Assembly: GCF_025060375.1 (NCBI RefSeq)
Contig: NZ_JANXCG010000020.1
Coordinates: forward strand, 1 to 61,908
Origin: Meiothermus sp.
Lineage (GTDB): Bacteria; Deinococcota; Deinococci; Deinococcales; Thermaceae
Direction of reading: 5' to 3'
Length of the DNA: 61,908 bases
Below the pieces are notes generated by a model. That model saw nothing but the letters and a program-made list of their open reading frames with translations. It ran no database searches and had not been told where the DNA came from. This document shows, in pieces, positions 14,905 to 61,476 of this stretch. Made by a program: the position numbers and the translations under genes. The stretch's first letter is position 1. Each line of letters begins with the position of its first letter.

Positions 14905-14911
14905 GAGGGGA

Positions 14912-40371: not shown

Positions 40372-42066
40372 ATGCCGGAAAAGCTGTCCAAGGTAGAAGA
40401 GATTAAGCTAAAAAGCCAACGGTTGCGCGGACCGGTTGACCAGGAGCTGGGAAACGGGCTAGACCACTTCAGCGAGGAGGGCTACCAGATTCTCAAGTTT
40501 CACGGCATCTATCAGCAAGACGACAGGGACCTCCGCAAAGCCCGAAAAGCCCAGGGGCTGGGCCCGGCCTACAGCTTCATGATCCGGGTGGCCATCCCCG
40601 GTGGGGCGCTCACCCCTCAGCAGTACCTGGCTTTGGACGACCTGGCCGACCGGCTGGGCAACGCCACCTTGCGCATCACCACTCGGCAGGCCATCCAGTA
40701 CCACGGGGTACACAAGGGCGGGCTCAAGCCCCTCATCCAAACCCTGCACCGACACCTGCTCACCACCCTCTCGGCCTGCGGCGATGTGGTGCGGAATGTG
40801 GTAGCCTGCCCAGCGCCCTTCGCCGACGGGGTGCGGGCCGAGGTGCTGGCCTACGCCCAGGCCCTCTCCCAAAGGCTCAAACCCCGCACCCGGGCCTACT
40901 ACGAAATCTGGCTGGATGGGGAAAAAGCGGTCAGCGCCGAGGAAAGCGAACCGCTTTACGGCGACACGTACCTGCCGCGCAAGTTCAAAATCGCCTTTGC
41001 GGCTCCGGGGGACAACTGCGTGGATGTCTACACCCAAGACATCGGCATTGTACCGGTGGTGGGGCAGGGTCTAGAAGGATTTACCCTGCTGGTAGGGGGC
41101 GGGCTGGGGCAGAGCCATGGGCTGAAGGACACCCGACCCATCCTGGCCAAACCCCTCACCACCATCCCTAAGGCACAGCTTTTTGAAGTAGTGGAGGCCA
41201 TCGTGCGGGTTCAGCGCGACCACGGCCGGCGTGATGAGCGCAAGTACAGCCGCATGAAGTACCTGGTGGAGGCCTGGGGGCTGGAACGCTTTAGGGGCAC
41301 AGTGGAGGCTTACTTGGGAGCCTCTCTTCCCCCCGCCGAGCCTGTTGACTGGCTTTCAGCCGACGACCACCTGGGCTGGCATGAGCAGGGCGATGGACGC
41401 CTCTTTCTGGGCTTGTTCGTGGAGAACGGGCGGCTCAGGGATGAGTTGCGCCACGGCATAAGAACAGCGGTGGAGCAACTGGGCCTCGAGGTTCGACTCA
41501 CCCCGCAGCAGAACCTGCTCTTCATCAACGTTCAACCTGAGCAAAAAGGTGAGCTCGAGGCCCTCCTGCAGGCCCATAGGATACCCATCCCCTTCCGAGG
41601 GCAGATTCCTCTGGTGGTGCAGCAGGCCATGGCCTGCCCGGCCCTACCCACCTGCGGCCTGGCCATCACCGAGGCCGAACGAGCCATGCCTGCAGTAATT
41701 CGCGAGATTGACAGCTTGCTCACCCAGCTTGGGCTGCAAGGAGGCCCCGTTCCTCACATCCGCATGACCGGCTGCCCCAACGGTTGCGCCCGGCCCTACA
41801 GCGCCGAGGTGGGGCTTGTGGGGCGCAGCCTCAACAGCTACACCCTCTACCTGGGAGGAAGCCCCCTGGGCACTCGGCTAGGAGAGCCCTTTCTGGACAA
41901 TCTGAAACGTGAAGAAATCGCCTCCGTGCTAGGACCTCTGCTGGCCTTTTACAAGGAAGCTCGGCTCGAGAGGGAAGCCTTTGGCGACTTTTGCCAGAGG
42001 GTAGGGCTGGAAGCCCTTAGGGAGCGCCTTCATGCAACCCAAACCTCAGGCAACCCCCGTTCCTAA
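40372..42066 (+). CDS. Sulfite reductase, siroheme [4Fe-4S] hemoprotein (CysI/Sir type)
   Basis: The enzyme reduces sulfite to sulfide with six electrons. The 564-residue protein has the CysI-like N-terminus ILKFHGIYQQDDRDLRKAR, ferredoxin-like repeats (LRITTRQAIQYHGV with the substrate Arg/Lys residues) and the cluster/siroheme Cys motifs CPALPTC and GCPNGCARP (C-x5-C, C-x3-C) near residues 420-465. The CysI style of the N-terminus and the position behind cysC-cysH-sat favour sulfite over nitrite. No CysJ flavoprotein is present, so electrons probably come from ferredoxin or another donor. Confidence 0.92.
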   Translation: MPEKLSKVEEIKLKSQRLRGPVDQELGNGLDHFSEEGYQILKFHGIYQQDDRDLRKARKAQGLGPAYSFMIRVAIPGGALTPQQYLALDDLADRLGNATLRITTRQAIQYHGVHKGGLKPLIQTLHRHLLTTLSACGDVVRNVVACPAPFADGVRAEVLAYAQALSQRLKPRTRAYYEIWLDGEKAVSAEESEPLYGDTYLPRKFKIAFAAPGDNCVDVYTQDIGIVPVVGQGLEGFTLLVGGGLGQSHGLKDTRPILAKPLTTIPKAQLFEVVEAIVRVQRDHGRRDERKYSRMKYLVEAWGLERFRGTVEAYLGASLPPAEPVDWLSADDHLGWHEQGDGRLFLGLFVENGRLRDELRHGIRTAVEQLGLEVRLTPQQNLLFINVQPEQKGELEALLQAHRIPIPFRGQIPLVVQQAMACPALPTCGLAITEAERAMPAVIREIDSLLTQLGLQGGPVPHIRMTGCPNGCARPYSAEVGLVGRSLNSYTLYLGGSPLGTRLGEPFLDNLKREEIASVLGPLLAFYKEARLEREAFGDFCQRVGLEALRERLHATQTSGNPRS

Positions 42067-42265
42067 GACCCCGCCGCGCCAAGGGCTGCTCTTCCCGTGC
42101 GGTCTCTCGGTTCCGTTTGGAGTGGCCGAGAAACGGGGCAAAGAAGCGTCCCTGGGACCGCTGAGCCGCCATGCGGTGATCCCAACGGCCTCGTCTGGGA
42201 GGGTGCCAGGAGCGCAGCAGAAGCCCTCGAGCCCTCAGAGAAACGGCCCAAAAGGACCAGCCTTG

Positions 42266-42294
42266 TTGCCTCAAACCCTCTGGGGTGCTAACTT
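42266..42294 (+). promoter_or_regulatory. Leaderless promoter of hemL
   Basis: TTGCCT at 42266-42271 and TAACTT at 42289-42294 are 17 bases apart, and the ATG follows six bases after the -10. The 200 bases upstream (42067-42265) hold no gene or clear terminator that I can see, only a 6-bp inverted repeat at 42113-42136. Confidence 0.6.
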
Positions 42295-42300
42295 CGGGGC

Positions 42301-43611
42301 ATGAAGACCCAGCGTTCGGCAGAGCTTTTCGCCCAAGCCCAGCAGGTCATCCCCGGAGGGGTCAACTCCCCGGTGCGGGCCTTCAAGGCCGTAGGGGGCA
42401 CCCCCCGCTTCATCGCCCGGGCTCAGGGAGCCTACCTGTGGGATGCGGACGGAAACCGGCTTCTAGACTACGTGGGCTCCTGGGGGCCGATGATTTTGGG
42501 GCACAGCCACCCCGCAGTGGTGGAGGCCCTTCGGGAGGCCCTGGAGGAGGGCTTGAGCTACGGGGCCCCCACCGAGCGCGAGGTGCGCCTGGCCGAGCTG
42601 GTGCGGGAAGCCTACCCGATGGTTGAACTGGTGCGCTTCGTAAGCAGCGGCACCGAGGCCACCATGAGCGCCCTGCGGTTGGCTCGAGGCTACACCGGGC
42701 GCGACCTCATCGTGAAGTTCCGCGGCAACTACCACGGCCACGCCGACAGCCTGCTGGTGCAGGCTGGCTCGGGGCTGCTCACGGGGGGTGGGGGTACGGC
42801 CAAAAGCGCCCCCTCGAGCGCGGGGGTTCCCCAGGCCTTTGCCGAGCTAACCCTAGTGGCCGACTACAACGACCCCGAAGGGCTAAAAGCCCTGTTCGCC
42901 CAGCAGGGCGATCGGATAGCGGCGGTGATTTTCGAGCCGGTGGTGGGCAACGCGGGGGTGCTCATCCCCACCGAGGAATTCCTGGACACCCTGCACCGCC
43001 TCACCCGGGAACACGGCGCCCTACTCATCGCCGACGAGGTGATGACCGGCTTCCGCCTGGCCAAAGGGGGCGCTGTGGAACTCCTGGGGCTCAAGCCCGA
43101 CCTGGTGTGTCTGGGGAAAATCCTGGGCGGGGGGCTGCCGGTGGGGGCCTACGGGGGCCGGGCCGAGATCATGCAGCAAGTAGCACCCTTGGGTCCGGTT
43201 TACCAGGCCGGCACCCTAAGCGGCAATCCCCTGGCTATGGCTGCAGGCATCGCTACCCTGAAAACGCTCTTTCAAGACCCGCCCTACAAGCGGCTAGAAA
43301 CCTACGGAAAGGCCCTTCGAGCAGGGCTGGAGGACGTCTTCACCCAGGCCGGCCTACCTGCCACCATCAACCAGGTGGGCTCCATGGTCACGGTCTTCTT
43401 CCGTGAAGGGCCGGTGCGCACCTACGCCGAGGCGGTAGCCTCGGACACTGGGCGGTTCAAAACCTTCTTTCACGGCCTCCTGGAGGCAGGTGTCTACTGG
43501 CCCCCCAGCCAGTTCGAGGCGGCGTTCTTCTCCACCGCCCACGGCGAGGCAGAGCTAGAACAGACCCTAAAGGCAGCCCGGACCGCGATAACTCGGATGC
43601 CTGCTCGCTAA
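42301..43611 (+). CDS. hemL: Glutamate-1-semialdehyde 2,1-aminomutase
   Basis: HemL converts glutamate-1-semialdehyde to 5-aminolevulinate, the step between HemA and HemB and the only one missing from the operon at 25246-35081. The 436-residue PLP enzyme has VIPGGVNSPVRAFKAVGGTP (split after PGGVNSP), FVSSGTEATMSALRLARGYTG, KFRGNYHGHAD, the PLP-Lys in LGKILGGGLPVGAYGGR and YQAGTLSGNPLAMAAG. Leaderless promoter upstream. It follows the siroheme-dependent sulfite reductase but has its own promoter and a hairpin after it. Confidence 0.96.
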   Translation: MKTQRSAELFAQAQQVIPGGVNSPVRAFKAVGGTPRFIARAQGAYLWDADGNRLLDYVGSWGPMILGHSHPAVVEALREALEEGLSYGAPTEREVRLAELVREAYPMVELVRFVSSGTEATMSALRLARGYTGRDLIVKFRGNYHGHADSLLVQAGSGLLTGGGGTAKSAPSSAGVPQAFAELTLVADYNDPEGLKALFAQQGDRIAAVIFEPVVGNAGVLIPTEEFLDTLHRLTREHGALLIADEVMTGFRLAKGGAVELLGLKPDLVCLGKILGGGLPVGAYGGRAEIMQQVAPLGPVYQAGTLSGNPLAMAAGIATLKTLFQDPPYKRLETYGKALRAGLEDVFTQAGLPATINQVGSMVTVFFREGPVRTYAEAVASDTGRFKTFFHGLLEAGVYWPPSQFEAAFFSTAHGEAELEQTLKAARTAITRMPAR

Positions 43612-43624
43612 AGGGCCAAAACAG

Positions 43625-43663
43625 CGCGCAGCCCCGGCCTGGCATCCGGGGCGCGTGAATTTT
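43625..43663 (+). terminator. Possible terminator after hemL
   Basis: CCCCGG (43632-43637) and CCGGGG (43646-43651), extended by CGCG on both sides with a CAG bulge, form a GC-rich stem followed by TGAATTTTG. The T-run is short, so confidence is moderate. From here to 43834 there is AT-rich sequence without a gene. Confidence 0.45.
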
Positions 43664-43834
43664 GTCCAACACCCTGCCGTTCTCAGACAGCCTGCACAGG
43701 CCTACCCCTCCGCCTCCGGCAAGATGTCAGAAAAAAAGCGATCAAAATTCAGATTTTTGTATAACGATTAGCAGAAAATTCCCTGCACCTGACCAAAACG
43801 TTGAATCAGGAGACCCAACAAACCGGAACAACAA

Positions 43835-43864
43835 TTGACACCATGCCATCCGCATCCCTATACT
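43835..43864 (+). promoter_or_regulatory. Strong promoter of the NMT1-type transporter/urate cluster
   Basis: TTGACA at 43835-43840 and TATACT at 43859-43864, spaced 18 bases, are the best consensus match in the window. An unusually AT-rich stretch (43725-43800) lies upstream and could be an UP-like or operator region. AAGGAGGT at 43888-43895 precedes the ATG at 43901. Confidence 0.75.
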
Positions 43865-43900
43865 CAGCCCAGGTGTCTTGGCACCGTAAGGAGGTTTGCT

Positions 43901-44917
43901 ATGTGGACCCGAGGTCTGCTCCTTGCCCTTTTTTTCCTAATCAGCCTGGGCCTGGCCCAACCCCGCAGCCTGCGCTTCACCCTCGACTTCGCCTTCCAGG
44001 GCCCCACCGCACCCTTCCTGCTCGCCCAGGACAAGGGCTACTACAGTGCCGAGGGGCTCAACGTGAGCATTGACCGGGGTTTTGGCTCGGCTGATGCCAT
44101 TAGCAAGATCGCTGCAGGCAACTACGATATGGGCTTTGCGGACTTCAACTCGCTCATCGAGTTCAACACCCGCAACCCCAACAACCAGCTCCTGGCCGTC
44201 TTCATGGTCTACAACACCACCCCTGCCGCGGTTTTCACCCTCAGGGGCAGGGGCATCGCCCGGCCTACCGACCTGGTGGGCAGGACCCTAGCCGCCCCTG
44301 CCGGAGACGCAGGCCGCCGACTCTTCCCGGTCTTCGCCGAGGCGGTGGGTATTGACCCCGCTCGGGTTAACTTCATCAACGTGGACGTGCCTCTGCGCGA
44401 GCCTACCCTGGCCCGGGGCCAAGCCGACGGCATTACCGGCTTCTACTTCACCTCCTTCCTCAACCTGCGCAACATCGGGGTCAGACCCGAGGATATGGTG
44501 ATTTTCAAGTACAGCGACTACACCCAAGACCTCTACGGCAACGCGGTAGTGGTGCGCCGCGACTTCGCCCAGGCCAACCCCCAAGCGGTCTCAGCGTTCT
44601 TACGCGCGCTGGTCAAGGGCTTCAAGGACGTCATCGCCAACCCTGACGAGGGCATTGCTGCGGTCAAGCGGCGCGACGGGCTCATCAACGACGCCTTGGA
44701 GCGCGAGCGGCTACTTCTAGCCCTCAACACCCACGTGCTCACCCCGGACAGCCGGGCCTTCGGCTTGGGCTCGGTGCGGCGCGAACGGGTGGAGCGGAAC
44801 ATCCGAGCAGTGGCCAAAGCCTTTGAGCTGCCCAGCGTGCTTCGGGTTGAGCAGGTCTGGACAGACCGCTTCCTGCCCCCCATCGCTGAGCGGCGGGTCA
44901 CCGGCTCGGCCCGCTGA
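43901..44917 (+). CDS. NMT1/SsuA-like ABC transporter substrate-binding protein
   Basis: This is a periplasmic binding protein of the NMT1/THI5-SsuA family. ATG 43901 with AAGGAGGT gives 338 residues and a Sec signal (TRGLLLALFFLISLGLAQ); no lipobox Cys. The mature part has FTLDFAFQGPTAPFLLAQDKGYYSAEGL, the family start (ligand-side GP, then the KGYY helix), DRGFGSADAISKIAAGNYDMGFADF and LVGRTLAAPAGDAGRRLFPVF. Relatives bind aliphatic sulfonates, pyrimidine precursors or similar rings. The urate cluster that follows suggests a purine catabolite such as urate or allantoin, but the ligand is unknown. Confidence 0.88.
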   Translation: MWTRGLLLALFFLISLGLAQPRSLRFTLDFAFQGPTAPFLLAQDKGYYSAEGLNVSIDRGFGSADAISKIAAGNYDMGFADFNSLIEFNTRNPNNQLLAVFMVYNTTPAAVFTLRGRGIARPTDLVGRTLAAPAGDAGRRLFPVFAEAVGIDPARVNFINVDVPLREPTLARGQADGITGFYFTSFLNLRNIGVRPEDMVIFKYSDYTQDLYGNAVVVRRDFAQANPQAVSAFLRALVKGFKDVIANPDEGIAAVKRRDGLINDALERERLLLALNTHVLTPDSRAFGLGSVRRERVERNIRAVAKAFELPSVLRVEQVWTDRFLPPIAERRVTGSAR

Positions 44918-44920
44918 GCT

Positions 44921-44950
44921 TTGACCCAAATGGGCCTCAGGCGCTAGACT
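44921..44950 (+). promoter_or_regulatory. Promoter upstream of the transporter ATPase gene
   Basis: TTGACC at 44921-44926 and TAGACT at 44945-44950 are 18 bases apart, starting directly after the binding-protein gene. It could give the ATPase and the catabolic operon a second transcript independent of the binding protein. Confidence 0.55.
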
Positions 44951-44962
44951 CGGGGTACTACC

Positions 44963-45766
44963 ATGCCCTTCATTGAGCTGCGCAATGTCAGCCTGCGTTA
45001 CGACAACGGCTACCTGGCGGTAGAAGGGATTAACCTCTCCATAGAGGAGGGGGAGTTCGTGGCCTTGGTAGGCCCCTCGGGCTGCGGCAAGTCCACCCTG
45101 CTGCGGGTCATCTCCGGCCTCCGCCCCCCCAGCACGGGCAAGGCCACCGTTCGCGGCCAACCGGTAGGCGGTACCCCGGTGAGCATTGGGATGGCCTTCC
45201 AGAACCCCACCCTGATGCCCTGGCGCACCGTGCTGCAGAACATCCTGCTGCCCCTCGAGGTCTCCCCCAAGCACAAGCACCACTACCGCCAAAACCCCAA
45301 GCCCTACGTTGAGGCTGCCCGCGAGCTGATGGCCTCGGTAGGGCTTTCCGGCTTTGAGAACGCCCACGTATGGGAGCTCTCGGGGGGCATGCAGCAGCGC
45401 GCCAGCCTGTGTCGGGCCCTCATCCACCAGCCCGAAATCCTGATGCTGGACGAGCCCTTCTCGGCGCTGGACGCCTTCACCCGCGAAGAACTCTGGCAGG
45501 CCATGCAGGTGCTCTACCTGAACCGCAGGCCCACCGTCATCCTGGTCACCCACGACCTGCGCGAGGCGGTCTACCTGTCCGACACCATCTACACCATGAG
45601 TTCTCGTCCCGGCAGAATCGCCCATATGCGCAAGGTGGGGTTCGCCCGACCCAGGGCCCTCGAGCTCACCTACCAGGATGAGTTTGCCCACATCGTGCGG
45701 GAGCTTCGGGAGCAGATTGGAGGCATGCGCAGCCAAATTACCGGCCTCAAGGGGGTAGGGGCATGA
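44963..45766 (+). CDS. ABC transporter ATP-binding protein (SsuB/TauB-like)
   Basis: This is the 267-residue ATPase of the importer. Walker A is VGPSGCGKST, the Q-loop is MAFQNPTLMPWRTV (characteristic of nitrate/sulfonate/taurine-type ATPases), the signature is ELSGGMQQRASLCRAL, Walker B is ILMLDEPFSALD and the switch His is in LVTHDLREAV. The C-terminal tail is short, without a regulatory domain. It overlaps the permease gene by four bases. Confidence 0.93.
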   Translation: MPFIELRNVSLRYDNGYLAVEGINLSIEEGEFVALVGPSGCGKSTLLRVISGLRPPSTGKATVRGQPVGGTPVSIGMAFQNPTLMPWRTVLQNILLPLEVSPKHKHHYRQNPKPYVEAARELMASVGLSGFENAHVWELSGGMQQRASLCRALIHQPEILMLDEPFSALDAFTREELWQAMQVLYLNRRPTVILVTHDLREAVYLSDTIYTMSSRPGRIAHMRKVGFARPRALELTYQDEFAHIVRELREQIGGMRSQITGLKGVGA

Positions 45767-46524
45767 GCCTGCGCAAGGATACCCTGGTCGCAGCGCTGGC
45801 CGTGGTGGGGCTGTTCGCGCTTTGGGAGGCCTCGGTGCGGCTTTTTGGGATTCCCCCCTTCGTGCTGCCCTCCCCCTCCCAAGCCGTCCTATCCCTGGTC
45901 CCGGTCTGGGGGGTGGTGGTGGGACATGCCTGGCAGACCCTCTGGACGACCCTGGCAGGGTTTGGGCTGGCGGTGGCAACGGGGGTGCTCCTGGGGGCAG
46001 CGGTGGGCACCTCCCGGCCCCTCAACCTGGCCCTCTACCCCCTCCTGGTGGGCTTCAACAGCGTGCCCAAGGCGGCTTTGGTGCCGGTGCTGGTGTTGTG
46101 GTTTGGCATCGGGACAGTGCCGGCCATCCTAACCGCTTTCCTGATCTCGTTTTTCCCCATCGTGGTCAACGTGGCCACCGGTCTGGCGGCGGTACCCCCG
46201 GAACTGCGGGAGGTGCTCAGGGTGTTGGGCTCGAGCCGGCTGGAGGCCTTCACCCGGGTCTCCATCCCCTTCTCCATGCCTTACTTCTTCGCCTCGCTCA
46301 AAGTGGCCATCACGCTGGCTTTTGTGGGGGCAGTTATCTCCGAAATTGCCGCCTCCCAGAAGGGCATCGGCTACATGATGACCTCAGCCAGCTCGCAGTT
46401 CAATGTTCCCTTGGTCTTTGGTGGGCTCCTGGTCATCGCGGCCATGGGCATCCTGCTCTACGCTGTTTTTGCCCTGCTCGAGCGCCGCTTGGTGGGCTGG
46501 GCTTACCGCAATCAAAGCGCCTGA
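45763..46524 (+). CDS. ABC transporter permease (SsuC/TauC-like)
   Basis: This is a 253-residue inner-membrane protein with about six helices. Features of the family: LWEASVRLFGIPPFVLPSPSQ near the N-terminus (with the LPSP turn), GFNSVPKAALVPVLVLWFG, and the EAA loop ELREVLRVLGSSRLEAFTRVSIPFSMPYFFASLKVA in two parts. The mature complex would be a homodimer of this permease with two ATPases. The stop TGA at 46522-46524 is followed at once by uraD (46526), linking transport and urate degradation. Confidence 0.92.
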   Translation: MSLRKDTLVAALAVVGLFALWEASVRLFGIPPFVLPSPSQAVLSLVPVWGVVVGHAWQTLWTTLAGFGLAVATGVLLGAAVGTSRPLNLALYPLLVGFNSVPKAALVPVLVLWFGIGTVPAILTAFLISFFPIVVNVATGLAAVPPELREVLRVLGSSRLEAFTRVSIPFSMPYFFASLKVAITLAFVGAVISEIAASQKGIGYMMTSASSQFNVPLVFGGLLVIAAMGILLYAVFALLERRLVGWAYRNQSA

Positions 46525-46525
46525 T

Positions 46526-47023
46526 ATGACCCTGGACGAACTCAACCGGCTTCCCCTCGAGGACTTCGTGGAAAAGGTGGGTTGGGTCTTCGAGGGCTCC
46601 CCTTGGATTGCCCAGGCGGCCTGGGAGAGCCGCCCCTGGGCGAGCCTGGAGGCCCTCCACCAAAGCCTGGTAAGGGTGGTGCAAAGGGCCCCTCGGGAAG
46701 CGCAGCTCGCCCTGATTCGAGCCCACCCCGACCTGGGCAGCCGCACCCGCATGGCCGAGGCCTCCCAGGCTGAACAGAGGGGGGCGGGCCTGGACACCCT
46801 CACCCCCGCCGAATACGAACGCATTCAGGTCCTGAACCGGGCCTACACCGAGAGGTTCGGCTTTCCCTTCATTCTGGCGGTGCGCGGGAAGGGCAAAGCC
46901 GAGGTCTTCCGGGCTATGGAGGCCAGGCTCGAGAGCGACCCAGAAACCGAGTTCCAGACGGCCCTCTCGGAGGTCTACAAAATCGCCTACTTTCGCCTTG
47001 CTGACCTGCTCGAGCGGGCTTAG
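46526..47023 (+). CDS. uraD: OHCU decarboxylase (third enzyme from urate to S-allantoin)
   Basis: UraD decarboxylates 2-oxo-4-hydroxy-4-carboxy-5-ureidoimidazoline to S-(+)-allantoin. Start ATG 46526 gives 165 residues, normal for the family; a longer frame overlaps the permease. The all-helical protein has the catalytic motif AHPDLGSR with His67, and NRAYTERFGFPFILAVRGK, the conserved FGFxFIxxxxGK block. It follows the permease by one base and puuD follows after 14, so it is in the middle of the transport-catabolism operon. Confidence 0.94.
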   Translation: MTLDELNRLPLEDFVEKVGWVFEGSPWIAQAAWESRPWASLEALHQSLVRVVQRAPREAQLALIRAHPDLGSRTRMAEASQAEQRGAGLDTLTPAEYERIQVLNRAYTERFGFPFILAVRGKGKAEVFRAMEARLESDPETEFQTALSEVYKIAYFRLADLLERA

Positions 47024-47037
47024 ACTGCCTACAGAGT

Positions 47038-48351
47038 ATGGACATCCTCAACCAAGACCGCCTGCGCCTGATCAAGTGGCCCTGGCTGCTGGCCCTTCTG
47101 GCCCTCTTCGGCCTGGGGCTGGCCCTGACCCTGGTCCACGGCTGGCAGGCCCACGCCCGAGAATGGCTCAACCTGGTGGTGCGCTGGCTGCACATCATTT
47201 ACGGTATCGCCTGGATTGGGGCCAGCTTCTACTTCATCTTTCTGGAAAACGCCCTGGAACGCCACGGGGTGCGGGCCGAGCTCTCAGGCAACCTCTGGGC
47301 CATCCACGGGGGAGGCATCTACTACCTGGAAAAGTACAAGACCGCCCCAGCCCAGCTCCCCAAGCACCTGCACTGGTTCAAGTGGGACGCCTACCTCACC
47401 TGGGTCACGGGGTTCTTGCTCCTGGTCATCGTCTACTACGCCGACCCCAGGGCCATCCTGCTACCCCCCAACAGCCCCCTCCCCAGCTGGGCGGCTGTGG
47501 CCATCGCGGTGGCCAGCCTCCCAGCCGCCTGGCTGGTCTACGCTGCCCTCTCCAGCACCCAGCTGCTCTACCGCCCAGCCCTCTTCCTGCTGGTGGGCGG
47601 TGCGCTGGTCGCCCTGGCCGCGTATCTGCTTGGCCAGGTGTTCAGCGGGCGGGGTGTCTTCATGCACATCGGGGCCATGCTGGGCACCATCATGGCGGCC
47701 AACGTCTTCTTCGTTATCATCCCCTCCCAGAAAAAGCTGGTGCGGGCCGCGCAGAAGGGTGAAGCCCTAGACCCGGGGTTTGTGGCCTGGGTGCAGCTCC
47801 GTTCCCGGCACAACAACTACCTTACCCTGCCCGTGCTCTTCACCATGATTGCCCACCACTTTCCCTTTACCTACACCCACGGGGCAAACTGGCTCATCCT
47901 GATCCTGCTCTTCGTGGCCGGGGTGGCGGTGCGGCACTTCATCAACGTAACCGAGAAGGAGCACAAGAGAACCCTCGTGGAGGGCGGGGCCATGCCCTAC
48001 CTGCTGGTGGGGGCTGCGGCCTCGGTTCTGGTGGCCTTCTACCTAACCGCCCCCCGCACCCCAACCGCCCAGGTAGACGCCCCGGTCCCCTTCGCCGAGG
48101 TAGAGGCAATGGTCCGACAACACTGCCACATGTGCCACGCCGCGAGGCCCACCCAGCCCGGTTTTGCCTCGGCCCCCGCTGGGGTAATGTTTGACACGCC
48201 CGAGCAGATCGTGGCCCAGGCAGACAAGATCAAGCGAACCGCAGTGGACACCACCTACATGCCCCTTCTGCTGCCCGGGGTGCCCCCGCTGACCCAGGAG
48301 CAGCGGGCCAGGCTTGGGGCCTGGGTGGCCCAGGGGGCCCGGGGGCCCTAG
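47038..48351 (+). CDS. puuD: Membrane-bound urate oxidase PuuD with C-terminal cytochrome c domain
   Basis: PuuD oxidises urate to 5-hydroxyisourate and passes electrons to a cytochrome instead of O2, so it makes no H2O2. The 437-residue protein has about eight or nine membrane helices ([36 protein letters not shown] and [16 protein letters not shown] are typical). A cytochrome c domain in the last 80 residues has CHMCH at 363-367 and a candidate axial Met at about 408 (TTYMPLLLP). Haem must be exported and attached by a Ccm/Ccs system encoded elsewhere. It lies between uraD and uraH. Confidence 0.9.
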
Positions 48352-48361
48352 GAGGTCAGGT

Positions 48362-48718
48362 ATGGCCCGGCTATCCACCCATGTTCTGGACACCACCCAC
48401 GGCCGCCCCGCGGCAGGGATGCGGCTCGAGCTATACCGCTTCGAGGAAGGCGGTGCCCGCACCCTGGTCGCCTCTGCCACCACCAACGCCGACGGCCGGA
48501 CCGACACCCCCCTCCTCTCCGGGGAAACCCTGCCCACCGGGGTCTACGAGCTGGTCTTCTACGTAGCGGAATACTTCGCCGCCCAGGGGGTGCACCTCCC
48601 CAACCCGCCCTTCTTGGGCTCAGTGCCCATCCGTTTTGGCATTGCCGAGCCTCAGGGTCACTACCACGTCCCCCTGCTGGTCTCCCCCTTTGGCTACAGC
48701 ACCTACCGTGGAAGCTAG
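48362..48718 (+). CDS. uraH: 5-hydroxyisourate hydrolase (transthyretin-like)
   Basis: This enzyme opens 5-hydroxyisourate to OHCU, the step between PuuD and UraD. The 118-residue transthyretin-like protein has [16 protein letters not shown] (catalytic His at the N-terminus), TTNADGRT with the catalytic Arg, [19 protein letters not shown] ending in the YRGS tetrapeptide that separates these hydrolases from true transthyretin. AGGAGGT precedes ATG 48362. No signal peptide, so it acts in the cytoplasm. Confidence 0.96.
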
Positions 48719-48723
48719 GGCCC

Positions 48724-49950
48724 ATGGAAGCGCTTAGGACCCTGGCCCAAAAGGCCGTTGAGCGGTGCCAGGTTTTAGCCCACCTCTCTGAGGAGGAGGG
48801 CCGTCTAACCCGTACCTTCCTCTCCCCCCCCATGCGCGAGGTGCATCGGGTGCTGGCCGGCTGGATGGAGGCCTTGGGCATGAACGTGCGGTTGGACGCG
48901 GTGGGCAACCTGATCGGCCACTACCCGGCCCAAAAACCCGATGCCCCTCTGTTCCTGCTCGGTTCCCACGTAGACACCGTGCGGGACGCCGGGCCCTACG
49001 ACGGGGTGCTGGGGGTGGTGCTGGCCCTGGCCCTGGTGGAAGCCCTGGAGGGCGAGCGGCTCCCTTGGGCCCTGGAGGTCATCGCTTTCTCCGAGGAGGA
49101 AGGGGTGCGCTTTGGGGTGCCCTTTTTGGGGAGCAAAGCGGCGGTGGGGCGCTTTGAGACGGAGCTCCTACAGCGCAAGGACGTCCAAGGTCAAAGCCTG
49201 GCCGAGGCCATACGGGCTTTTGGACTTGATCCCGAGCGAATTCCCCAGGCCGCCTACGAACCCGGTCGGGTTAGCGGCTACCTGGAGTTCCACATCGAGC
49301 AGGGACCGGTTCTGGAGAACCTGGGATACCCACTGGGGGTGGTGGAGGCAATCGCCGGGCAGAGCCGGCTCGAGCTCACCTTCATCGGCCAGGCGGGCCA
49401 CGCCGGCACCACCCCCATGCCCTTGCGGCGCGATGCCCTGGCGGGGGCAGCCGAGTGGATGACCTGGGTAGAGCGGGAGGCTCGAAGAACACCGGGGCTG
49501 GTGGCTACGGTGGGCCGAATCGCAGCCCTGCCCGGTGCGGCCAACGTAATCCCGGGTGAGGCACGGCTCAGCCTGGACGTGCGGCACGCTGAAGACGAGG
49601 TAAGGGCCCACGCAGTAGCCCACCTGGTCGGGCGGGCCCAGCAAATTGCACTTCGGCGGGGGCTGGAGCTGGCCTACCAAACCCTGCACGAGCAGCCCGC
49701 AGTGCCTTGCGACCCCTACCTGCGCGAGGCGCTGGCTCAGGCAGTGGAGGCCCAGGGCTACCCCGTGCACCGGATGGTCTCCGGGGCCGGCCACGATGCC
49801 ATGATCATGGCCTCGTTATGCCCCGTGGCCATGCTCTTCCTGCGCAGCCCAAAGGGGCTCTCGCACCACCCTGAGGAGTCGGTGTGGCCCCAGGACGTCG
49901 AGGCCGCCCTGCGGGTGGGGCTCCACTTTCTACGGCAATTGGCGAGGTGA
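48724..49950 (+). CDS. allC: Allantoate amidohydrolase (M20 family)
   Basis: AllC releases CO2 and ammonia from allantoate to give S-ureidoglycine. The 408-residue di-metal M20 enzyme has GSHVDTVRDAGPYDGVLGV (His82, Asp93 ligands) and FSEEEGVRFG (Glu124-126, catalytic and ligand), then HIEQGPVLE and GQAGHAGTTPMPLRRDAL for the dimerisation domain and substrate Arg/His. VSGAGHDAMIMA and GLSHHPEE near the end complete the pattern. The DAGPYDG block is closer to allantoate enzymes than to the second M20 gene at 52049, which differs clearly. Confidence 0.88.
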   Translation: MEALRTLAQKAVERCQVLAHLSEEEGRLTRTFLSPPMREVHRVLAGWMEALGMNVRLDAVGNLIGHYPAQKPDAPLFLLGSHVDTVRDAGPYDGVLGVVLALALVEALEGERLPWALEVIAFSEEEGVRFGVPFLGSKAAVGRFETELLQRKDVQGQSLAEAIRAFGLDPERIPQAAYEPGRVSGYLEFHIEQGPVLENLGYPLGVVEAIAGQSRLELTFIGQAGHAGTTPMPLRRDALAGAAEWMTWVEREARRTPGLVATVGRIAALPGAANVIPGEARLSLDVRHAEDEVRAHAVAHLVGRAQQIALRRGLELAYQTLHEQPAVPCDPYLREALAQAVEAQGYPVHRMVSGAGHDAMIMASLCPVAMLFLRSPKGLSHHPEESVWPQDVEAALRVGLHFLRQLAR

Positions 49951-49952
49951 GA

Positions 49953-51296
49953 ATGCTTGACCTCATCGTACGCGGTGGCACTCTGGTCACCCCCGAGGGG
50001 CTGCAGCGGGCCGACCTGGGGGTAGAGGGTGGGCAAGTAGCGGTCATCGCCCCGGAAATCGCCGAACCGGCCCGACGGGAGGTGTCCGCCCAGGGGCTTT
50101 ACGTCTTCCCCGGCCTGATAGATGTCCACGTCCACTTCAACGAGCCCGGCCAGGCCCACTGGGAAGGCATTGCCACCGGCAGCGCAGCCCTGGCTGCAGG
50201 GGGGGGCACCGCCTTTTTTGACATGCCCCTCAACTCACTGCCCTGCACCCTGGACGGCCCTTCCTTCGACCTCAAGCTCTCAGCCATGAGGGCCCAGTCG
50301 CACACCGACTTTGCGCTGTGGGGTGGCCTGACCCCAAAGAACCTCGAGCGCCTGCCTGAGCTGGCTGAGCGAGGGGTCATCGGTTTCAAGGCCTTCATGT
50401 GCAACTCGGGCCTCCCCGAGTTCCCCGCCTGCGACGACGCTACCCTCTACGAGGGTATGCGCACAGCAGCCCAGCTTGGACTGCCGGTGGCGGTGCACGC
50501 CGAGTCCGAGGCCCTCACCGCCCATCTCACCCAAAAAGCCCGGGCCCTGGGCACCTCCTGGCGGGAGTACCTGGCCTCAAGGCCGGTCTTCACCGAGCTT
50601 GAGGCCATCGGACGGGCCCTCTTGCTGGCCCAGGAGACCGGTTGCAAGCTGCACATCGTACACATCAGCTCAGGCTCAGGGGTAGCCCTGGCTGCCGAGG
50701 CCCGGGCCAAAGGGGTGGACGTGAGCCTGGAGACCTGCCCCCACTACCTGGCCTTCACCGAGGACGACCTGGAGCGGCTGGGGGCGGTGGGCAAGTGCGC
50801 TCCCCCCTTGCGGGCTAGGGCCGAGCAGGAAGGGCTCTGGTCCCATGTTCTGAAGGGAAGCGTGGACATCATCGGTTCCGACCACTCCCCAAGCCCGCCG
50901 GAGATGAAGCGGGGAGAGGACTTCTTCGCCCTTTGGGGAGGCATCGCCGGGGTGCAGTCGACCCTGGCGGTGCTGCTGACCGAGGGCTGGCAGGGACGGG
51001 GCCTACCCCTGGAGCGGCTCGCGGCCCTCCTGGCCCAGGGCCCCGCCCAGCGGTTCGGCCTGACCCGAAAGGGCCGGCTCGAGCCAGGCTGCGACGCCGA
51101 CTTCACCTTGGTCAACCTGGAGCGCGAGCATACCCTGACCTCCCAAGACCTCCGCTACCGCCACGCCATCTCCCCTTACCTAAACCGAACCTTCCGAGGC
51201 ATAGTGGAAAGCACCTGGCTGCGGGGCGAGCCCATCTACGCCGAGGGTAAGATAAGAAAGCCCAGCAGCGTATGCCTGCTCACGAGGGAAGCATGA
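49953..51296 (+). CDS. allB: Allantoinase
   Basis: AllB hydrolyses allantoin to allantoate. The 447-residue amidohydrolase has the metal site DVHVHFNEPG (His59, His61), the carbamylated Lys in GVIGFKAFMCNSG (Lys146), VAVHAES and LHIVHISSG for the next His ligands, and IIGSDHSPSPPEMK with the catalytic Asp. The HFNEPG and KAFMCNSG blocks separate allantoinase from dihydropyrimidinase and dihydroorotase. ATG 49953 is preceded by GCGAGGTGAGA; the longer frame overlaps allC. It overlaps the next gene by four bases. Confidence 0.93.
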   Translation: MLDLIVRGGTLVTPEGLQRADLGVEGGQVAVIAPEIAEPARREVSAQGLYVFPGLIDVHVHFNEPGQAHWEGIATGSAALAAGGGTAFFDMPLNSLPCTLDGPSFDLKLSAMRAQSHTDFALWGGLTPKNLERLPELAERGVIGFKAFMCNSGLPEFPACDDATLYEGMRTAAQLGLPVAVHAESEALTAHLTQKARALGTSWREYLASRPVFTELEAIGRALLLAQETGCKLHIVHISSGSGVALAAEARAKGVDVSLETCPHYLAFTEDDLERLGAVGKCAPPLRARAEQEGLWSHVLKGSVDIIGSDHSPSPPEMKRGEDFFALWGGIAGVQSTLAVLLTEGWQGRGLPLERLAALLAQGPAQRFGLTRKGRLEPGCDADFTLVNLEREHTLTSQDLRYRHAISPYLNRTFRGIVESTWLRGEPIYAEGKIRKPSSVCLLTREA

Positions 51297-52039
51297 GCCT
51301 GACCGGATTCACCCGCACCCATGTAGCCCCCGACCACGCCCTTCTGACCCCCGACACCTTTATCCGGGCCCCCCTGCCGGGCTGGACGAACACCCTCTGC
51401 ATTGTGCACATCTCGCCGGAGCTAGGGGCCCGCTTCAAGATGTACACGGCGGAGATGCAGCCCGGAGGCAGCGGGGAGATGACCCTGCTGGACATCCAGC
51501 GCTTTGCCTATGTCCTTTCGGGACGGGTGGGGCTCGAGGTGGCTGGAGCCCAGCACACCCTAGAACCCCACCGCTACGCCTATCTGCCGGCCAACACCCC
51601 CCACCGCTTCACCGCCTACACGGAAAGCCGGATGGTGGTCTTTGAAAAGCCCTATCAAGCCCTGGCCGGCGCCGAAGCGCCCAGCCTGGTGTTGGGCTTT
51701 GAACCGGAGGTAGCCGCTACTCCCCTGATGGGCGACGAGGCCCTACAGGTGCGCCTCCTGCTCCCAGACCACCCTTCCTTTGACCTGGCGGTCAACACCA
51801 TGACCTTCGAGCCAGGGGCCCACCTGCCCATGGTGGAGACCCACGTCATGGAGCACGGCCTGCTCTTCCTCCAAGGGGGTGGGGTCTACCGTCTGGGGGA
51901 GCGATGGTACCCGGTGCAAACCGGGGATGTGATCTGGATGGCCTCCTACTGTCCCCAGTGGTTTGGCGCCCTGGGCAAGGGCCCGAGCAAGTACCTTATC
52001 TACAAAGACGTCAACCGGCATTCATTGGAACTTCTCTAA
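51293..52039 (+). CDS. allE: (S)-ureidoglycine aminohydrolase (bicupin)
   Basis: This enzyme releases ammonia from S-ureidoglycine to form S-ureidoglycolate; the homologue in E. coli is YlbA/AllE. The 248-residue protein contains two cupin domains (about 45-120 and 165-240). The metal-binding residues of the C-terminal cupin are in place: VETHVMEHG gives Glu182, His184 and His188, and CPQWFG gives Gln222. ATG 51293 overlaps the allB stop (ATGA). It fits exactly between allantoate amidohydrolase and ureidoglycolate amidohydrolase in the pathway. Confidence 0.92.
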   Translation: MSLTGFTRTHVAPDHALLTPDTFIRAPLPGWTNTLCIVHISPELGARFKMYTAEMQPGGSGEMTLLDIQRFAYVLSGRVGLEVAGAQHTLEPHRYAYLPANTPHRFTAYTESRMVVFEKPYQALAGAEAPSLVLGFEPEVAATPLMGDEALQVRLLLPDHPSFDLAVNTMTFEPGAHLPMVETHVMEHGLLFLQGGGVYRLGERWYPVQTGDVIWMASYCPQWFGALGKGPSKYLIYKDVNRHSLELL

Positions 52040-52048
52040 AGAATCACC

Positions 52049-53341
52049 ATGGCGCTAAAACTCCAAATCAACACCGAACGCATTGTGCGGGAGCTCGAGC
52101 AACTGGCCAGCTACTCCGAAACCCCACCGCCAGCCATCACCCGCATCCTCTTTACCCGGCCTGACCTCGAGGCTCGAGCCTACCTAAAGGGGCTGTGCCA
52201 GGAAGCTGGGCTAAAGGTGCGAGAAGACGGCCTGGGCAACCTCTTCGCCCGCTGGGAGGGCAGCGCCCCTGAGCTCCCTGCGGTAGGCACCGGCTCCCAC
52301 ATCGACGCCATTCCCTACGCCGGTATGTACGACGGGACCGTGGGGGTGCTGGGGGGGCTGGAGGCCATCCGAGCGCTAAGGCAAGCTGGCTTCAGGCCGC
52401 GCCGCTCGATAGAGCTTCTGGTCTTCACTGCTGAGGAACCTACCCGCTTTGGCATTGGCTGCCTGGGAAGCCGAGCGCTGAGCGGTACGCTGAATCCGGA
52501 GGCCCTGCGCTTGCTCAGGGACAACGAGGGCAGAAGCCTGGAGGAGGTACGCCAAGCAGCAGGCTACACAGGGCCCCTGGAGGAGGTCCAGCTGCCCGAA
52601 AACTACTACTCTGCCTTCGTAGAGCTACACATTGAGCAAGGGCCGGTGCTGGAGCAGGAGGGGGTGCCGATTGGCGTGGTCACCGCCATTGCTGCTCCAG
52701 CCTCGCTGAGGGTCATCCTAGAGGGCGAAGGAGGCCACGCCGGCACGGTACTGATGCCCGACCGAAAGGACGCCCTCTGCGCGGCTGCGGAGATCATCCT
52801 GGGGGTGGAGGCTTTCGCTCGAGGCAGTGGCAGCATCAACACCGTAGCCACCACCGGGTTTTGCGAGGTCCACCCCAACGCCATCAACAGCGTGCCCAGC
52901 CGGGTCAGGTTGGAGATTGATGTGCGCGACGTGGAGCAAAACCGGCGCGACCAGGTAATCCGGAACATCCTGCAGGGCGTAGAACAGGTCTGTACCAGGC
53001 GCAGCATCCGCTACAGCGTGGAGATTATCAACATGGACCCCCCCGCCAAGTCGGGCTCCGAGGTCCTGAAGGCCCTGGTGGAGGCCTGCGGCGAGGCCTC
53101 GGTGCGCTTCAAGCTAATGGTGAGCCGGGCCTACCACGACTCCTTGTTCATGGCCCGCATCGCCCCTACCGCCATGCTCTTCATCCCCTGCCGGGGAGGG
53201 ATAAGCCACCGTCCGGACGAGTACGCCAGCCCGGAGGACATCGCTCAGGGGGTGCGGGTGCTGGCCCTTGCCCTAGCCAAACTCTCCCAAGCCGAGGAGA
53301 AAACCCCCCCCAAGGATGAGCCCCTCACCCTAAACGACTGA
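52049..53341 (+). CDS. Ureidoglycolate amidohydrolase (plant UAH-like M20 enzyme)
   Basis: This is the second M20-family gene in the cluster, 430 residues, and quite different from allC. It has GTGSHIDAIPYAGMYDGTVGVLG (His84, Asp95) with the DAIPYxGxYDG pattern that I know from plant ureidoglycolate amidohydrolase, plus TAEEPTRFGIGCLGSRAL, FVELHIEQGPVLE, VVTAIAAPASLRV and SRAYHDSLFMARIAP, all close to the plant enzyme. It would convert ureidoglycolate to glyoxylate, CO2 and two ammonia. An N-carbamoyl-amino-acid hydrolase is the alternative. Last gene of the urate run; the C-terminal tail (about 20 residues) is Lys/Glu/Pro-rich. Confidence 0.85.
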   Translation: MALKLQINTERIVRELEQLASYSETPPPAITRILFTRPDLEARAYLKGLCQEAGLKVREDGLGNLFARWEGSAPELPAVGTGSHIDAIPYAGMYDGTVGVLGGLEAIRALRQAGFRPRRSIELLVFTAEEPTRFGIGCLGSRALSGTLNPEALRLLRDNEGRSLEEVRQAAGYTGPLEEVQLPENYYSAFVELHIEQGPVLEQEGVPIGVVTAIAAPASLRVILEGEGGHAGTVLMPDRKDALCAAAEIILGVEAFARGSGSINTVATTGFCEVHPNAINSVPSRVRLEIDVRDVEQNRRDQVIRNILQGVEQVCTRRSIRYSVEIINMDPPAKSGSEVLKALVEACGEASVRFKLMVSRAYHDSLFMARIAPTAMLFIPCRGGISHRPDEYASPEDIAQGVRVLALALAKLSQAEEKTPPKDEPLTLND

Positions 53342-53353
53342 GGGGCCGAAGAG

Positions 53354-53373
53354 CGGGGGTAGAATAGCCCCCG
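53354..53373. promoter_or_regulatory. Inverted repeat around the -10 of the DUF815 gene
   Basis: CGGGGG (53354-53359) and CCCCCG (53368-53373) flank TAGAATAG, so the presumed -10 (TAGAAT, 53360-53365) lies in the loop and the ATG starts immediately after the second arm. It could be an operator or a 5' mRNA structure. Confidence 0.4.
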
Positions 53374-54480
53374 ATGCGCCTCTTCCCACCCCTCCGCGAA
53401 GACCCCCTCGCCGAGCTTTTCCACACCCACCCCCCTGCAGGGGAGCCCTGGGCTTGGGTCCTCTGCCGGCGCATCTGGTATGCCGAAGGCCTGGCCCGAA
53501 GGCTGCTCACCGAGCCCCTCACGCCAGGGCTGAGCGACTGGATTGAGCAGGAACTCTCCACTCTGCGGCATGAACTTGCCCAGCTCAAGCAGCGCTACCC
53601 TTTCGCCGACTTCGGCCAGCGCGGGGCCAGCCCCGCCGAGCAAGCCGCCCTGCGGGTGCTACAGGGCGGCTCGGCCTCCGAGCTACAGGCCCTCTACCGC
53701 ACCTACGGGTACGGGATATACGCAGAGCACACGGCCTTTCTTTACGATCGAGGGATGGTGCCGGTACCCCACCCCGACCCAGCCCGTTTCAGCGACCTGG
53801 TGGGCTACACCCGGCAACTCCAAACCCTAAGGCAGCATGTGGAGGGTTTCCTGGAGGGAAAAGAAGCGGTTCCAGTGCTCCTCTACGGGGCTCGAGGCTC
53901 AGGAAAGTCCACCGCGGTCAAGGCCCTGCGCACCGAGTACAGCCCAAGGGGACTCCGACTGGTGGAGGTACTGCCCGACAGCCTCGATCAACTCCCCGCG
54001 CTCTTGACCCTGCTGGCCCCCCTACCCCACCGCTTCGTGCTCTACCTAGACGACTTGGCCTTCAGCAGCGACGACGAGCGCTTCCACAAGCTCAAAGCCC
54101 TACTGGAAGGAGCCGTCTACGAACGGCCCCCCAACGTGCTGGTGGTGGCCACCTCCAACCGGCGCAACCTGGTGCGCGAGCAGTGGAGCGACCGCCCGGA
54201 GCCCAACGCTCCCGACCCTGCCTCTTGGGACACCCTTCAGGACAAACTGGCCCTAGCCGATCGCTTCGGTCTGGTCCTCACCTTCCCTCCCTTTGACCAG
54301 CCGCTCTACCTAGAAGCGGTGGCCCATATCCTGGGAAGGCCCCTGGACGAGGCCACCCGCCAGGCCGCGCTGCGCTTCGCCCTGGAGGGCCGGGGTTTTT
54401 CAGGCCGTACAGCCCGCCAATTCGCCGCCACTCAAAGCCCCCTCAAACCCGGATGCGCTCCGGGGCAGCGTAAAGGTTGA
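53374..54480 (+). CDS. DUF815 AAA-type ATP-binding protein
   Basis: The 368-residue protein contains a P-loop ATPase of the DUF815 group in its second half: Walker A VLLYGARGSGKSTAVKA, Walker B FVLYLDDLAFSSDDE, then LKALLEGAVYERPPNVLVVATSNRRNLV and DRFGLVLTFPPFDQPLYLEAV (sensor regions and lid). The N-terminal half (1-150) is helical and family-specific. The function of DUF815 proteins is not established. ATG 53374 lies eight bases after a TAGAAT box that sits in the loop of an inverted repeat (53354-53373). It converges with fdhD and overlaps it by 38 bases. Confidence 0.88.
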   Translation: MRLFPPLREDPLAELFHTHPPAGEPWAWVLCRRIWYAEGLARRLLTEPLTPGLSDWIEQELSTLRHELAQLKQRYPFADFGQRGASPAEQAALRVLQGGSASELQALYRTYGYGIYAEHTAFLYDRGMVPVPHPDPARFSDLVGYTRQLQTLRQHVEGFLEGKEAVPVLLYGARGSGKSTAVKALRTEYSPRGLRLVEVLPDSLDQLPALLTLLAPLPHRFVLYLDDLAFSSDDERFHKLKALLEGAVYERPPNVLVVATSNRRNLVREQWSDRPEPNAPDPASWDTLQDKLALADRFGLVLTFPPFDQPLYLEAVAHILGRPLDEATRQAALRFALEGRGFSGRTARQFAATQSPLKPGCAPGQRKG

Positions 54481-55288
54481 AACCTGTCCGCAAAAAACCG
54501 ACCAGCGTGAGGTGGAAGGCCCGGGCCAAGTCCACCGCCAGGCTGCTGGGGGCCGAGAGGGCCACCAGGATGGGCACACCGCCAGCCAAGGCTTTCTGCA
54601 CCAGCTCAAAGCTGGCCCGCCCGCTGACCAGGAGCAGGCACTCGGACAGGGGCAACCGGCCTTCCAGTAGGGCCCAGCCCAAAAGCTTGTCCACAGCGTT
54701 GTGCCGGCCCACATCCTCCCGTAGCGCCAGCAAGACGCCCTCGGGGTCAAAAAGGGCTGCCGCGTGCAGTCCGCCGGTAGCCCCGAAAAGGGCCTGGCGG
54801 GCCAGCAACCTATGGGGCAGGTCCGGCAACAGATGGGCAGACACGATAGGGCCGCCCTGGAGGGGGCGGAAACGGCGGTGTAGACCCTCCAGGCTAGCCC
54901 GCCCACAAACCCCACAGGCCGAGTGGGTGTAGAAGTGACGTTCAAAGGGAGCCAGCTCGGGCAGGCGCGGGGCGTTTAGGACCACACTCACCACGTTATA
55001 CTGCTGGGCCTCGCCCCGCGGCGTACAGTAGCTGATGCGTCGGATTTCCTCCCTGTGGGAGACAATCCCTTCAGCGAACAGGAAGCCCGCGGCGAGCTCG
55101 AAGTCGTGACCCGGGGTGCGCATCGTAACCGCCACGGTGCGCACCTCCCCTCCCTGGGCCACCAGGCGAATCTCCAGCGGCTCCTCGGTGGCCAGGTAGT
55201 CAGACCTCGGATAGGCCCGCTCCCCTTCAACCCGCAGCAGGGTGGTCGGGGTCTTGGCTTTGGGGCGGCTTTTGGTAAACGTGAACAT
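54443..55288 (-). CDS. fdhD: Formate dehydrogenase accessory sulfurtransferase FdhD
   Basis: FdhD transfers sulfur from a cysteine desulfurase to the molybdenum cofactor of formate dehydrogenase-type enzymes. The 281-residue protein has TEEPLEIRL, MRTPGHDFELAAGFLFAEGI, the sulfur-carrying Cys pair in HSACGVCGRAS (C125, C128), LREDVGRHNAVDKLLGWAL and LVSGRASFELVQKAL. Its start lies 62 bases inside the molybdoenzyme gene just upstream, which suggests tight coupling with its client. It overlaps the DUF815 gene tail to tail. Confidence 0.95.
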   Translation of the reverse strand: MFTFTKSRPKAKTPTTLLRVEGERAYPRSDYLATEEPLEIRLVAQGGEVRTVAVTMRTPGHDFELAAGFLFAEGIVSHREEIRRISYCTPRGEAQQYNVVSVVLNAPRLPELAPFERHFYTHSACGVCGRASLEGLHRRFRPLQGGPIVSAHLLPDLPHRLLARQALFGATGGLHAAALFDPEGVLLALREDVGRHNAVDKLLGWALLEGRLPLSECLLLVSGRASFELVQKALAGGVPILVALSAPSSLAVDLARAFHLTLVGFLRTGFNLYAAPERIRV

Positions 55289-57488: not shown

Positions 57489-57858
57489 AGGACCATTATA
57501 GGCCTAAACCCCCGGGGCGTAGGGTGCGTCCCTATTTTGCGTAGGAAGAAGGGCTGTAAGCGCAGCCCGGTTATGTCCAGATGGCTCTCCCTCAACAGCC
57601 GCCGGCTCCAGCGAACACAAAAGCTGAACCCGCAAGGACCCAGGCAGCTACAGCAAAAGGTTCCAAAAATGCCGCCATCCCCCGGCCCAAAGGCGGTCCA
57701 TCACCTCCAGGGCTTGCCAGTCTGAGAAAAAAGCCCGCCCAGAAAAGGCCAGCCCTCATCCATGAGGGCCAGCACCGAGCATTCCCTCCCCAGCACCCCC
57801 TGGGCGCCACCGGCCGGCCCTCGCCGGCCGATGCGGCGAGGGCTTGGCTGCAAGCCCG
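57489..57858. other. Gene-poor intergenic stretch between the molybdoenzyme and the lipoprotein gene
   Basis: No gene could be supported here. The -10 of the molybdoenzyme lies at 57495-57500. A perfect 8-bp hairpin (57752-57769, GCCCTCAT with ATGAGGGC) followed on the minus strand by TGGCCTTTTC, and a 9-bp stem at 57818-57842, lie downstream of the lipoprotein stop and probably end its transcript. Open frames on both strands are low-complexity and look accidental. Confidence 0.6.
57752..57769 (-). terminator. Probable terminator after the lipoprotein gene
   Basis: On the minus strand GCCCTCAT and ATGAGGGC form a perfect 8-bp stem with a two-base loop, followed by TGGCCTTTTCT and a little later TTTTTT. 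It is about 90 bases past the lipoprotein stop, beyond a second stem at 57818-57842. Confidence 0.45.
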
Positions 57859-58530: not shown

Positions 58531-58581
58531 AGGCCCAAGCCTAACCCGAAAGGATGAGAACTTTTCGCGTAGAATCAGGGC

Positions 58582-60098: not shown

Positions 60099-60132
60099 AA
60101 CTGCCTCCAGCGGCCATCTTAGCACCAAAGGC

Positions 60133-61472
<1,340 letters not shown>

Positions 61473-61476
<4 letters not shown>

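Follow-up and report, generated by a model that had tools for sequence, protein, structure and literature searches.

The window analysed here, a 61,908-nucleotide stretch of the Meiothermus sp. contig NZ_JANXCG010000020.1, carries a gene cluster that begins with an ATP-binding cassette (ABC) transporter and runs on into genes for urate degradation (Table 1). The first gene encodes a substrate-binding protein (SBP) of the NMT1/SsuA-like type with an N-terminus that reads by eye as a signal sequence without a lipobox cysteine, and is followed by genes for an ATPase and a permease. The TGA stop codon of the permease (46522-46524) is separated by one base from the ATG of uraD (46526), and both the three transporter genes and this spacing, which were noted in the original prediction, are confirmed by the coordinates and the family profiles. 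Judged by its profile matches, the cluster codes for a putative pathway from urate down to the ureide end, in which the puuD product carries a CxxCH haem motif at its C-terminus (by eye) and the second M20-type amidohydrolase possibly acts on ureidoglycolate.

The position of the transporter is conserved within the genus. A search of 111 genomes of the phylum at an SBP match threshold of E 1e-30 found the SBP in 12, namely 11 Meiothermus and one other member of the order (G005). Ten of the 11 Meiothermus genomes carry complete transporters, and in all ten (the window and L061-L069) the order is SBP, ATPase, permease, uraD, puuD, hiuH, amidohydrolase, with AllB and AllE also present. The comparison of homologous neighbourhoods thus places the transporter immediately upstream of uraD in every Meiothermus genome with a complete copy. 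Counted from one alignment end to the next, permease and uraD of the nine other complete loci lie 2-11 bases apart in six cases and approximately 200 in three. The eleventh genome, G037, retains only the first part of the transporter (L060, 8411-8860), where the first ~112 SBP codons are fused in frame to the last permease codons; this reads as an internal deletion of the importer that spared the promoter and the catabolic genes. The gene for the membrane urate oxidase, puuD, is present in 18 of the 18 Meiothermus genomes searched and is thus kept where the transporter is absent, which makes the transporter accessory to the pathway and not essential. In G027 and G043 uraD comes immediately after hemL with no transporter between them, and in G036, G041 and G042, whose contigs stop at uraD or puuD or close by, the absence rests on the genome-wide search.

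The SBP belongs to the PF09084 superfamily (133.8 bits against a gathering cut-off of 20.5), and among the NCBIfam models it matches SsuA and TauA best, with scores far under their curated cut-offs (TIGR01728, 57 of 163.5; TIGR01729, 48.9 of 304.25). A FastTree phylogeny of 140 SBPs places it in a clade of 104 rows (support 99) that spans several phyla and is made up of 89 family rows, seven Meiothermus rows and eight rows, representing seven different proteins, that are linked to a riboswitch described below. The 32 control rows, including four paralogues from the same genome as the window, fall outside this clade together with TauA and SsuA. IQ-TREE, in a quick analysis of 56 rows, recovers the same clade (38 rows, support 99); both programs flag long branches outside the clade, and ThiY sequences were not among the rows.

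The residues that TauA uses to contact its ligand include Gln30, Gly61, Gly79, Glu106, Thr132, Trp176 and Asp205 (PMC6906117). In a MAFFT alignment none of the seven is kept in the window SBP, which has Ala31, Ser63, Asp81, Ala109, Ala137, Phe181 and Asn214 at these places. Of the seven, only Thr132 is found anywhere in the clade, in 6 of 104 rows. Every clade row (104/104) has Asp81 and Asn214; their pairing with Gly79 and Asp205 of TauA depends on MAFFT and is unsure, since an hhalign profile comparison matches up the lobes but leaves gaps at both positions. Thirteen positions mark the clade, being kept in 96-100% of its rows and in 0-21% of the controls: Asp58, Gly60, Ser63, Tyr75, Asp81, Glu87, Pro93, Tyr104, Pro108, Tyr212, Asn214, Glu267 and Arg270. 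The riboswitch-linked SBPs shown in the alignment have them too; the whole comparison was made on sequence columns. A six-residue tandem duplication (IEFNTR) is seen in the SBP of L008 (G030) and in no other row.

The AlphaFold2 model of the SBP has its nearest solved fold in ThiY (3ix1; Z 33.5, 2.8 Å, 295 aligned residues, 21% identity), followed by the thiamin-bound 4nmy (Z 31.3), 2x26 (Z 25.5) and TauA (6ssy, Z 23.2). Structures of ThiY and of the thiamin/Thi5 type are thus its best matches, ahead of SsuA and TauA, and the sequence profile is likewise nearest to the ThiY type. This may hint, as a suggestion only, at a kinship with SBPs for flat heterocycles. Among the PDB entries listed, 14 from the sequence comparison and 50 rows from the fold comparisons, no purine-bound homologue occurs.

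The gene neighbourhoods of relatives point towards purines throughout the clade. Scanning 84,980 species genomes yielded at least 569 confirmed relatives, of which the best 80 were used and combined with eight plasmid loci and L059 into 89 family loci with SBPs 35-90% identical to that of the window; because seven family members, Deinococcota among them, supplied the scan patterns, the sample has this clade at its centre. The 40 control loci surround other NMT1 SBPs; 12 of the relatives' genomes contributed 35 and the window's own genome five, and one of them (L230) turned out to be a clade member itself; some family and control stretches end at contig ends. Strict markers of purine degradation (uraD, puuD, hiuH, allE, puuE and 8-oxoguanine deaminase) lie within 10 kb in 30 of the 89 family loci versus 0 of the 40 controls, rising to 35 of 89 when xanthine dehydrogenase is included (Fisher 2.7e-6 and 2.1e-7, respectively, with relatedness ignored). 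The strict count is 28 of 87 without the two Meiothermus loci, and among the 61 family loci that span 20 kb or more, 31 have xanthine dehydrogenase, a gene of the guanine-deaminase cluster or a strict marker. Unsupervised clustering of neighbouring open reading frames (ORFs) recovers puuD, PuuE allantoinase, a uraD-allantoate amidohydrolase fusion, 8-oxoguanine deaminase and xanthine dehydrogenase, whose representatives were named by NCBIfam and Pfam, as well as guanine-deaminase-like proteins and urease genes. A further neighbour family resembles Tsx-like outer-membrane proteins by eye, but neither Pfam nor NCBIfam gave a match to it at the thresholds applied.

A second line of evidence comes from the RF03054 (NMT1-motif) RNA, a riboswitch whose ligands are xanthine (~3.7 uM) and uric acid (~25 uM) and which turns genes off (PMC7373994). 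Yu and Breaker found NMT1/THI5-like and tauA-like genes under its control and argued in 2020 for a role of these genes in purine metabolism rather than in that of thiamin (PMC7373994). We find 28 occurrences of RF03054 in 18 of 38 genomes or records of relatives, and seven of these copies, in seven genomes or records, lie directly upstream and on the same strand of clade SBPs (L192, L198, L199, L208, L209, L212 and L213). Like the window SBP, these seven members of the RF03054 regulon of NMT1/THI5-like and tauA-like genes fall in this clade (34-39% identity) and are predicted to serve purine transport; unlike them, the window system has no RF03054, heads a urate-degradation cluster and belongs to the Deinococcota. 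In L145 (13727-15030) the family SBP is followed, 3-4 kb further downstream, by two copies of RF03054, and a Rieske/VanA-type oxygenase gene stands just after the first of them. This arrangement is possibly notable because the riboswitch was published, as far as the accessible text of that account goes, from Proteobacteria only and not adjoining genes for the degradation of oxidised purines (PMC7373994).

The conserved position before uraD, the purine neighbours across the clade, the riboswitch-linked relatives and the loss of the TauA ligand residues together argue for a purine-type ligand, as the original prediction had suggested. From gene order, conservation, clade membership, neighbours and residues, all of which were computed here, we infer both the ligand and the direction of transport: the transporter is probably an importer of intact oxidised purines, most likely of urate and possibly of xanthine too, and the chances that urate is its main ligand in Meiothermus are about even. 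The original prediction also held that a purine specificity is not usual for this family, which is only partly right; as stated it does not suit the closest clade, which is broadly associated with purines, and NMT1-like genes had been tied to purines already in 2020 (PMC7373994). In the open literature, seen mostly as titles and abstract openings and with subscription journals largely outside it, no report of a measured purine ligand for an NMT1-type SBP was found.

It is proposed that the periplasmic SBP would capture the purine, which the permease and ATPase would then move into the cytosol, where PuuD would open the pathway. PuuD has been argued to oxidise urate at the cytosolic side (PMC4562309). 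The products of hiuH, uraD, allB, allC and allE and the second amidohydrolase would then release glyoxylate and ammonia. A broader proposal, with the balance lying evenly for and against it, is that this widespread clade of ABC importers is dedicated to high-affinity uptake of oxidised purines, that Asp81 and Asn214, with Asp58, Tyr104, Glu267 and Arg270, form a signature of its specificity or architecture, and that the Meiothermus member delivers urate to the cytosolic face of PuuD.

The cluster may have two transcription starts. The main promoter is a strong match to the consensus (11 of 12), and in the aligned upstream regions of the SBP gene of ten Meiothermus its TATACT box is present in all ten and a TTGACA-type box in nine (the exception being L069). 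The internal site between the SBP and ATPase genes is weak taken alone, because a promoter scan of 42000-61908 returned three sites versus 1.7 expected by chance. A site of the form TTGAC-17-18 bases-TA[AG]ACT is kept in nine of the ten Meiothermus SBP-ATPase spacers, again excepting L069, and persists while the intervening bases drift; mononucleotide shuffles of each of the nine site-bearing spacers produce such a site in at most 1.25%, and the ten genomes are mutually related so that their spacers are not ten independent cases. This conservation makes a second start for the ATPase, permease and enzymes plausible, in line with the earlier suggestion that these genes could be expressed without the SBP, and promoter activity of both sites is likewise plausible. 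The main promoter would yield an excess of SBP and the internal one additional transporter and enzymes, which would fit an SBP-dependent importer. A hairpin in the spacer was considered instead; in single-sequence folds of the Meiothermus spacers a stem over the -10 region appears in some relatives (L064 and L065 among them) and none is common to all, which leaves the hairpin possible and the promoter the preferred reading. The imperfect inverted repeat that follows the -10 box of the main promoter is a perfect GGTGT-N5/6-ACACC in five of the ten upstream regions (L063, L064, L065, L066 and L067), of which the window keeps the GGTG/CACC core only, and it could be an operator for a purine-responsive regulator. 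A wider regulon for the promoter and inverted repeat found no backing: the window's own genome has the exact pattern TATACTNNGCCCAGG a single time, and its near-matches are numerous and uninformative.

Table 1. Features of the transporter and urate-degradation cluster in the window.
Feature	Position	Strand	Basis
Main promoter, TTGACA-18 bases-TATACT	43835..43864	+	11/12 consensus; putative
Imperfect inverted repeat GGTG..CACC, in -10/RBS (ribosome-binding site) interval	43872..43885	+	possible operator
Substrate-binding protein, NMT1/SsuA-like, 338 aa	43901..44917	+	ATG at 43901, stop codon ending 44917; PF09084 E 1.1e-38; AlphaFold2 pLDDT 94.9, pTM 0.90; clade placement
Internal promoter candidate, TTGACC-18 bases-TAGACT	44921..44950	+	9/12 consensus
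ABC transporter ATPase	44963..45766	+	PF00005 3.5e-33
ABC transporter permease, start overlapping ATPase stop	45763..46524	+	PF00528 5.7e-26
uraD, OHCU decarboxylase	46526..47023	+	TIGR03164 197.7 bits (cut-off 96.25), PF09349
puuD, membrane urate oxidase	47038..48351	+	PF06181 8.7e-108
hiuH, hydroxyisourate hydrolase	48362..48718	+	TIGR02962 131.9 bits
allC, allantoate amidohydrolase	48724..49950	+	NF006775 597.9 bits (cut-off 479)
allB, allantoinase AllB	49953..51296	+	TIGR03178 556.6 bits (cut-off 357.85)
allE, (S)-ureidoglycine aminohydrolase AllE	51293..52039	+	TIGR03214 304.6 bits (cut-off 200)
Second M20-type amidohydrolase	52049..53341	+	TIGR01879 384.3 bits; NF006771 403.2 bits (cut-off 399)

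Directly 3' of the cluster lies a DUF815 ATPase gene (53374-54480), which was matched in two of the nine other complete Meiothermus loci (L061 and L062) with the query used.

Several observations weigh against urate import by this transporter and its clade. Within the genus the transporter was not found in seven of 18 genomes and is a remnant in another, all of which have puuD, and the order-level relative G005 (L059) has neither strict purine markers nor PF06181. As many as 59 of the 89 family loci lack a strict marker within the available bases, among them Deinococcus QL22 (L104) and seven Cupriavidus/Ralstonia loci (L147, L151, L152, L160, L163, L187 and L191), while L109 adjoins a dihydropyrimidinase gene and L107 amidohydrolase and formamidase genes. 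In Chloroflexota the near relatives have xanthine dehydrogenase as a neighbour, a better fit to xanthine or hypoxanthine than to urate, and the xanthine dehydrogenase of the window's own genome would presumably let it make urate internally. The riboswitch-linked SBPs are paralogues and not orthologues, given their 34-39% identity to the window SBP and their own subclades, two other SBPs that neighbour the riboswitch (L229 and L232) fall outside the clade, and RF03054 is absent from the window in a search at gathering thresholds that returned three tRNAs only. The Cupriavidus/Ralstonia members have a common alternative conserved neighbourhood free of purine markers, for which a changed ligand is possible.

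The alternative that survives best overlaps with the import of oxidised purines as a whole, and holds that the main ligand is xanthine, hypoxanthine, guanine or 8-oxoguanine, from which xanthine dehydrogenase makes urate for the cluster. It is rather unlikely. In its favour, the transporter is followed by xanthine dehydrogenase subunits in three Chloroflexota loci (L128, L136 and L139), rhodocyclal relatives adjoin 8-oxoguanine deaminase and guanine deaminase genes, RF03054 binds xanthine better than uric acid (PMC7373994), and the window's own genome carries xdhB (TIGR02965, 994.1 bits against a cut-off of 849.5, contig C41). However, the Meiothermus transporter adjoins the urate steps in 10 of 10 loci, and the xdh genes lie on a separate contig (L270, 7174-18216 of G000:C41), where xdhA-xdhB-xdhC stand beside an oppositely oriented BMP/PnrA-type ABC importer with ATPase, permeases and a PF02608 SBP, a better candidate feeder of xanthine dehydrogenase. 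Import of a ring-opened product, whether allantoin, allantoate or a ureide, is improbable. The cluster does include allantoinase, allantoate amidohydrolase and AllE, and a Deinococcus aquaticus relative has allE-allB-allC ~10 kb away with urea genes adjoining, but the neighbour of the permease is uraD and no allantoin gene, and several clade members sit beside xanthine dehydrogenase or guanine/8-oxoguanine deaminase with no allantoin marker in the available bases.

Still further down in probability is a ThiY-like importer of thiamin-pyrimidine, thiamin or another pyrimidine that stands next to uraD by accident. ThiY of the ThiXYZ system is the closest solved fold, the sequence profile agrees, and the dihydropyrimidinase gene beside L109 would suit a pyrimidine; but ThiY and THI5 share only ~20% identity with the window SBP and were compared by fold and profile only, no thiamin genes were recognised adjoining the cluster, and the constant place before uraD, the purine neighbours and the riboswitch-linked relatives all speak for another ligand. 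According to its discoverers, in the accessible part of their report, RF03054 does not respond to thiamin-related compounds (PMC7373994). A common fold reveals no ligand, and the thiamin-precursor importer is disfavoured as fold closeness by itself is no ligand evidence. Least probable of all, and rejected, is an importer of taurine or alkanesulfonates, which would share superfamily, gene types and the TauA fold with TauABC/SsuABC and draws on the best-matching SsuA and TauA models and a nitrite/sulfite reductase gene 1.8 kb upstream of the SBP gene (40372-42066), but is contradicted by the low scores, by the difference at all seven tested TauA ligand residues, by the absence of tauD/ssuD homologues from the window and from all but one of the 89 family loci, and by the reductase gene being near only two of ten Meiothermus loci (the window and L061) versus uraD in 10 of 10.

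Import of oxidised purines by an NMT1-type transporter would sit alongside other routes. UacT and PucJ/PucK are urate and xanthine permeases of the NCS2/NAT family. These have the predicted substrate in common with the window importer but are secondary transporters, and their domain (PF00860), which stands for the only purine permease family searched for, was found in none of the 18 Meiothermus genomes; the same search was positive in 45 of the 111 phylum genomes and in 11 of 14 control genomes. With puuD in all 18 and NCS2 in none, a different route for urate is needed. The BMP/PnrA-type nucleoside importers likewise offer an ABC route for purine compounds through an unrelated SBP family (PF02608 versus PF09084), and the one beside xdh is a candidate for a second purine uptake locus of the genome; the two systems may divide the work, BMP taking in nucleosides or xanthine and NMT1 taking in urate. 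Another SBP gene of the BMP/PnrA type lies in the window at 13804-14940 on the minus strand (PF02608, 2e-44).

The surprise of a purine ligand is limited, because NMT1-like genes were placed in purine metabolism in 2020 (PMC7373994). In many genomes the transporter of this clade has long been annotated as an importer of taurine, nitrate, sulfonates or thiamin precursors; should the clade import urate and xanthine, these annotations are wrong and purine scavenging is more widely driven by ATP than has been supposed. Such a function would explain how Meiothermus, which bears puuD and in which no NCS2 permease was found, could obtain urate, and would give the riboswitch-linked NMT1 genes a concrete and testable function.

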